A stretch of 40,800 bases of DNA. It comes from Microcaldota archaeon (lineage in GTDB: Archaea; Micrarchaeota; Micrarchaeia; Micrarchaeales; CABMGC01). Both the position numbers and the translations under genes were made by a program. The DNA lies in the NCBI GenBank assembly GCA_027345185.1, contig DAHWIK010000027.1:1-40800 (forward strand). Reading direction: 5' to 3'. Positions 9,940 to 11,432 of this stretch are shown here, piece by piece; within the stretch, counting starts at the first letter, position 1, and each line of letters opens with the position of its first letter. Under the pieces are notes generated by a model. The model had not been told where the DNA came from, did no database searches, and saw only the letters and a list, made by a program, of their open reading frames with translations.

Positions 9940-11432
9940 TTTTGAGGTGATCTATCCACAGGTTCCCCTACGGATACCTTGTTATGCCTTAGCCCCCCTC
10001 ACGGAACCTTAGTTCGAAAGCATCACTAGGATGCTGCGTCACTAAGGCCCCACTTGGATGACTTGGCAGGCGGTGTGTGCAAGGAGCGGGGACAGATTCA
10101 CCGCGCGTTGGTGACACGCGATTACTAGGGATTCCAGTTTCATGAGGGTGAGTTTCAACCCTCAATTCAGACCTAGATTGGTTTTAGGGGATTAGCGTCC
10201 CATTTCTGGGTAGCAACCCATTGTACCAACCTCTGTATGCCGCGTGTAGCCCTGGAGATTCGGGGCATACTGACGTACCGTCGCCCTCTCCTTCCTCCTG
10301 CTTAAACGCAGGCGGTCTCGACAGAGTGCCTGGCCCTTCGCAGGACCAGTAGCAACTGTCAACGAGGATCTCGTTCGTTACCGGACTTAACCGGAGAGTT
10401 CACACCACGAACTGACGATCGCCATGCACCACCTCTCGGCTTGTCAGGCAAGATCATTAGTCTGACCTTCACACTGCCGTCGCTCCAGGTAAAGTTCCCG
10501 ACGTTGAATTCAATTGAACCGTAGCATCCACCCCTTGTGTGCTCCCCCGCCAATTGCTTTAAGTTTCAACCTTGCGGCCGTACTCCCCAGGCGGCAGACT
10601 TAACAGTTGTCCTACGGTACTGCATTTATTCGTGATAAACGCAACACCAGAGTCTGCATCATTTACTGCCAGGGCTACTCGGGTATCTAATCCGATTCGT
10701 TCTCCTGGCCTTCGTCACTCACCGTCGGATGTGTTCTGGTTTGGCGCCTTCGCCACCGGTAGTCTTCATAGGATTACGAGATTTTACCCTTACCCCATGA
10801 ATACTCCAAACCTCTCCCACTCCCTAGCCGAAAGGTATCCTATGCACGTGTTGATGTCATGCACCAACATTTCACACAAGACTGTTTCAGCCGGCTACTA
10901 ACGCTTTAAGCCCAATAATTGTGAATACCACTTGTGCCGCCGGTATTACCGTGGCGGCTGCCACCGGTCTTACCCAGCACTTATTCTCCAAGCTTGCTAA
11001 ACTTGGCAAAAGGTTCACCGAAGTGAACCACTCAGATTCCCCCCATCACACGTATGTGCATTGTGGAGTTTGCGCGCCTGCTGCACGCCGTAGCGCTAGG
11101 GCCATTGTCTCAGTGCCCTTCTCTGGGCTCTTACTCTCATATCCCATACGGGTCAAAGGTATGGTGGGCCGTTACCCCGCCATCTGCCTGATCCGACGCA
11201 GTCTCATCGCAGAGCAGTAATGCTGCAATTTGCAACTTTTTGAATTAGGACTCTTTCCAGAATTCCTAACCTATGTGGCATTAGCCTCAGTTTCCCAAGG
11301 TTATTCCCCTCTCTGCGGTAGATTGACCACGCGTTACTGAGCCGTACGCCGCCCAACGAGGCCGTTGAGCTGACTTGCATGGCTGTCGAAATCTGATAGC
11401 GGTATCCTCCAGCAGCATCGACTGGAGTCAAA
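9940..11432 (-). rRNA. 16S ribosomal RNA
   Basis: Minus strand contains CTCCAGTCGATGCTGCTGGAG (5' end), GTGGCAGCCGCCACGGTAATACC, ATTAGATACCCGAGTAG, GCACACACCGCC, AACAAGGTATCCGTAGGGGAACCTGTGGATAGATCACCTC (3' end). Ends approximate. Confidence 0.97.

Follow-up and report, generated by a model that had tools for sequence, protein, structure and literature searches.

A Watson-Crick pair in place of the U1406·U1495 mismatch in the 16S rRNA decoding site of an order of Micrarchaeota

Introduction

Can the decoding site of a cellular ribosome do without the U1406·U1495 mismatch? The mismatch has been described as universally conserved in the three domains of life, organelles included, with the C1406-G1495 pair of trypanosomatid mitochondria as the exception (Hobbie et al. 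2011, PMC3101183), which agrees with its being called near-universal in the original prediction on the DNA studied here. Clinical aminoglycosides make contact with it, and a change at this site is a matter for both ribosome and antibiotic specialists. The question is raised by a 16S rRNA gene within the window, i.e. the whole stretch of 40,800 nucleotides that was analysed (contig DAHWIK010000027.1 of the Microcaldota archaeon assembly GCA_027345185.1), for which a first reading of the letters had proposed that both C1404-G1497 and U1406·U1495 are replaced by other pairs. A literature search for C1406/G1495 in connection with archaea or free-living bacteria yielded no report; older rRNA compendia were not covered and priority is unproven.

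Results

The gene is an archaeal 16S rRNA gene of full length on the minus strand (9942-11428), which matches the Rfam covariance model RF01959 over model positions 1-1478 with 1357.9 bits, against a gathering score of 50. It is contiguous, lacks the ~500-bp insert that is found in many of its relatives, and constitutes the single 16S match in the host assembly (923 kb, 49 contigs), a draft metagenome bin that is 83% complete. At the 3' end the covariance alignment places U1404 (10068; C in E. coli and in the outgroup) opposite A1497 (9985; elsewhere G), G1405 (10067) opposite C1496 (9986), C1406 (10066; elsewhere U) opposite G1495 (9987; elsewhere U), C1407 (10065) opposite G1494 (9988) and A1409 (10063) opposite U1491. 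A1408 (10064) and the monitoring adenines A1492 (9990) and A1493 (9989) are kept. Because the model itself pairs 1404-1497, 1405-1496 and 1407-1494, this placement is independent of hand alignment. The bases, coordinates and numbering given in the original prediction, for which a structure-based alignment to the archaeal SSU model had been proposed as the check, proved correct. The canonical arrangement, U1406-U1495 flanked by C1404-G1497, is thus absent from the window's gene, which has C-G and U-A instead. Judged by its sequence, the site is a departure within archaeal SSU rRNA that still lies inside the RF01959 family.

A degenerate pattern scan of 303 genomes of the phylum Micrarchaeota revealed the ancestral form CCCGUC outside the order to which the window belongs, and the forms UGCC, CGCC and UGUC within it. 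Both helix strands of the order and outgroup 16S genes were read via fuzzy anchors independent of the pair bases, and the counts refer to the order members that were readable at both strands (n=109) and to 61 outgroup Micrarchaeota. The tabulation of 1404, 1406, 1495 and 1497 that had been suggested for ARMAN/DPANN 16S genes at large was thereby carried out for the Micrarchaeota. Within the order, 1406-1495 is C-G in 93 members, U·U in 15 and G-C in one, 1404-1497 is U-A in 89 and C-G in 20, and 1405-1496 is G-C in 89 and A-U in the other 20, A1405 being accompanied by U1496 each time. A one-sided change at any of these pairs (e.g. U1406-G1495) was found in 0/109 members, whereas C1407-G1494, A1408, A1492 and A1493 are invariant in 109/109. 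The helix of the outgroup is the same, including these residues and A1409-U1491, in agreement with the RF01959 consensus, but it carries U·U in 61/61 genomes and C1404-G1497 in 60/61, the exception (G038) having U-A. The joint states at 1404-1406/1495-1497 in the order are CGU/UCG, UGU/UCA, UGC/GCA, CGC/GCG, UAC/GUA and CGG/CCG. These stepwise haplotypes are still extant, CGU/UCG for instance in G109. The G1406-C1495 pair was found only in L167, the 16S locus of a complete single-contig genome (G190) with a long 16S branch.

The C-G pair is therefore not confined to the genome of the window, and 1405-1496 is variable in its relatives as well. Nine further members of the window's genus have identical bases, and the named relatives with the same motif, of which there are many, are mostly Candidatus Micrarchaeota MAGs from different projects. 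The draft state of the host genome could by itself raise the suspicion of an assembly or sequencing error, or of a decayed pseudogene. However, the gene is single, full-length and high-scoring, identical bases occur in many independent genomes, and the changes are exclusively paired; with conservation and covariation across the order this explanation is refuted, and its probability is close to nil. The same evidence, the covariance alignment and more than 100 related 16S genes, bears out what had been predicted on this point, namely that both changes are paired, that A1408, A1492 and A1493 are retained and that neither error nor decay is involved.

To follow the changes through the order, a 16S tree was built from which the trait columns were omitted and misaligned, insert-bearing rows were dropped. 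Each of the two families of the order, and likewise the outgroup, is set apart from the remaining sequences by a supported branch. On this tree 12 changes are required at 1404-1497 and four at both 1405-1496 and 1406-1495 (for the latter, at least 3-4). Eight independent changes at 1404 lie on supported branches, each with a matching change at 1497 (p=0.008 in a sign test); for 1405-1496 and 1406-1495 the independent pairs are concordant as well, but too few for a test of their own. In a quick tree that included the insert-bearing rows, the U·U forms were mostly located near the base of family f1 and almost all of them already have U1404-A1497, which suggests that in this family the 1404-1497 swap probably preceded the change at 1406-1495.

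A scan of genome contigs showed that C1406-G1495 is also present in genuine 16S genes of Clostridia/Christensenellaceae MAGs with genomes of 0.8-1.2 Mb. In the family of these carriers the site was readable in 48 of 149 genomes, with C1406 in at least 11 and U1404 in ~14. Wherever both strands could be read C1406 was accompanied by G1495, and the 30 loci that were fetched all have paired states. The full-length carriers constitute one clade with 98/98 support, which implies one origin for this full-length subset, and relatives with U·U and A1409-U1491 are present (G611, G511, G452). Thus, a Clostridia clade with genomes of ~1 Mb has acquired the pair independently. Among 311 evenly drawn Bacillota genomes no variant was found besides the seed genome itself and 53 had U·U, the effective denominator being 54 as most of the genomes gave no full-pattern match. 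Matches with A1406, G1404 or C1406 in four further Clostridia genomes (G553, G338, G328, G431) were chance 18-mers outside 16S genes, and motif matches in Gordonia, Comamonadaceae, Aquabacterium, Myxococcales and similar taxa lacked the partner strand and were rejected as chance. Some small-genome Clostridia relatives (L306-L328, family of G303) have U1404-A1497 with U-U retained, which echoes the archaeal first step.

The decoding site is not the only part of the order's 16S rRNA that has changed. In the central pseudoknot G18 (11416, minus strand) is the compensated partner of C917 (10556, minus strand; within the Arch915 probe/primer site), where C18-G917 is found elsewhere: 18-917 is G-C in 76/76 order members, and C-G in 44, U-G in two and G-C in three of the outgroup. 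Other order-wide compensated swaps concern 341-348 (C-G to G-C) and 963-972 (G-C to A-U); in addition, 245/283 went from U·U to C·C and 252-274 mostly from U-A to A-U. Considering these swaps, those in h44 belong to a general run of compensated changes in the 16S core. The 530 loop (10949-10964, minus strand), which reads GUGGCAGCCGCCACGG, adds a change of another kind. It contains G518 (10961), which is frequent in the order, and A527 (10952), which faces C522 uncompensated in 83/88 order members and 1/37 outgroups, so that not all changes are simple pair swaps. The 530-loop change is common to almost the whole order, the U-U members included. The apical loop of H69 in 23S rRNA is unchanged in the order, with swapped pairs in its stem (the window's own assembly, a draft bin, gave no 23S match), and the uS12 decoding loops did not consistently distinguish the order from the outgroup. 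In E. coli a loop of uS12 reads KKPNSA; the matching loop is mostly KQPHSG in Micrarchaeota, order and outgroups alike (uS12 genes L336-L348). C1400 stacks on the wobble base of the P-site tRNA in known structures, and a U replaces it in scattered Micrarchaeota (L167, L173, L175, L181, L207, L210, L213 and L157; L225, L236 and L248 in the outgroup).

Many 16S genes of the order contain inserts of ~500 bp (e.g. L157-L183, loci of 1.9-2.3 kb), which are probably introns. It could be argued that intron homing near the decoding site left the observed changes as scars, as a few of the inserts lie near E. coli positions 1360-1391 and a few near 910. However, 35 of the 43 inserts are near position 1100, inserts are lacking in carriers like the window, and the changes fall on both strands of the helix, as pairs, which makes such an origin extremely unlikely.

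Discussion

The U1406·U1495 mismatch, described as universal, has been replaced independently by a plain pair in an archaeal order and in one bacterial clade. The archaeal replacement is a real, order-wide exception that is convergent with the trypanosome mitochondria and with this clade. The result extends beyond the original prediction in three respects: the pair characterises the order as a whole, it has a G-C counterpart and is joined by A1405-U1496 in some members, and bacteria have converged on it. Since U·U was exchanged for C-G in the order as well as in the Clostridia clade, its base identity is not essential.

Very probably, the gene encodes a functional 16S rRNA in which the upper part of h44 was changed by compensatory pair replacement, within a wider compensated change of the order's 16S core. 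C1404-G1497 would have been converted to U-A and the U1406-U1495 mismatch to a Watson-Crick C-G in a coordinated replacement of base pairs. Double (compensatory) substitutions may be tolerated in small streamlined genomes, with the whole 16S core affected in this way, and the likeliest origin would be a replacement in which the pair itself was not under selection. Decoding would then depend on the helix geometry around A1408, A1492, A1493 and C1407-G1494, whereas it would matter little which bases form the three pairs above. Directly observed are the bases and the register in which they pair, their strict covariation within the order and the independent repeat in Clostridia. Reduced genomes are a trait common to the carriers in archaea, Clostridia and mitochondria, which is no more than suggestive.

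The known precedents differ from the archaeal case in several respects. The mitochondrial decoding site of Trypanosoma and Leishmania likewise has C1406-G1495 for U-U, and that of Trypanosoma also has A1409-U1491, as in the window (PMC3101183). However, these rRNAs are organellar, eukaryotic and of unrelated origin, and the pair was called unique there (PMC3101183), whereas the archaeal pair resides in the only 16S gene, together with U1404-A1497, and relatives of the window's genome have A1405-U1496 and G1406-C1495. Common descent with kinetoplastid mitochondrial rRNA is at odds with the score against the archaeal model and with the nesting of the window's gene among Micrarchaeota that have U-U outgroups. 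On these sequence comparisons, C1406-G1495 is a shared feature of independent origin. A Mycobacterium smegmatis mutant engineered to carry C1406-G1495 is viable, highly resistant to gentamicin and tobramycin, and susceptible to neomycin and paromomycin (PMC3101183). The pair is the same, but the mutant is a laboratory construct in a bacterial 16S rRNA and not natural variation; its viability nevertheless demonstrates that the pair supports translation. From this precedent, the sole 16S gene found and the order-wide conservation, we infer that the ribosomes of the carriers decode adequately. By analogy with the published mutants, carriers are predicted to have an intrinsic resistance to 4,6-disubstituted deoxystreptamines (gentamicin, tobramycin) but to remain sensitive to the 4,5-disubstituted ones (neomycin, paromomycin), although the drug data stem from a bacterial background and the window is archaeal with A1409-U1491.

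The resistance of this mutant (PMC3101183) also lends some appeal to selection by aminoglycosides, in which the C-G pair was fixed since neighbouring microbes make 4,6-linked compounds; judging from the genome names, the habitats of carriers include mine drainage and the gut, both densely populated by microbes. We consider this very unlikely. It leaves the covariation at 1404-1497, 1405-1496 and 1409-1491 unexplained, as well as the compensated swaps remote from the drug site (18-917, 341-348, 963-972), and trypanosomatid mitochondria have the pair even though it has been argued that aminoglycosides do not reach them (PMC3101183). An adaptive retuning of fidelity, in which the C-G pair, G518, A527 and U1400 jointly alter the dynamics of A1492/A1493 or the stringency of codon-anticodon recognition, would account for the fact that several positions of the decoding centre are altered in the same order, and in molecular dynamics simulations other U1406/U1495 mutants moved A1492 and A1493 outward (PMC3140962). 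Still, it is improbable: the 530-loop change extends to the U-U members and the two changes are thus separable, the Clostridia clade has an ordinary 530 loop, so that there the C-G pair is independent of the archaeal 530 changes, and neither the uS12 loops nor the H69 loop has an order-specific change. The broader idea of a decoding centre remodelled at many positions (by C1406-G1495 or G1406-C1495, A1405-U1496, A527, G518 and U1400) with dynamics and fidelity truly different from those of other cellular ribosomes is somewhat less doubtful, yet we regard it as unlikely. If it were true, the order would be a natural experiment on why U-U is otherwise retained.

The archaeal order and the bacterial clade make natural covariation available for 1404-1497, 1405-1496 and 1406-1495. 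With these natural ribosomes the question why U·U is kept elsewhere becomes testable, and intrinsic drug resistance can be predicted from sequence. Micrarchaeota have been grown in co-culture (e.g. PMC8975820). A literature search on primer mismatches in Micrarchaeota yielded nothing on the 1406-1495 pair. The altered bases of the order fall within the sites of the primers 515F, Arch915, 1391R/1406R and 1492R. Being located inside such standard primer sites, they may cause amplicon surveys to undercount the group (for the R1492 sequence, see PMC6627985).
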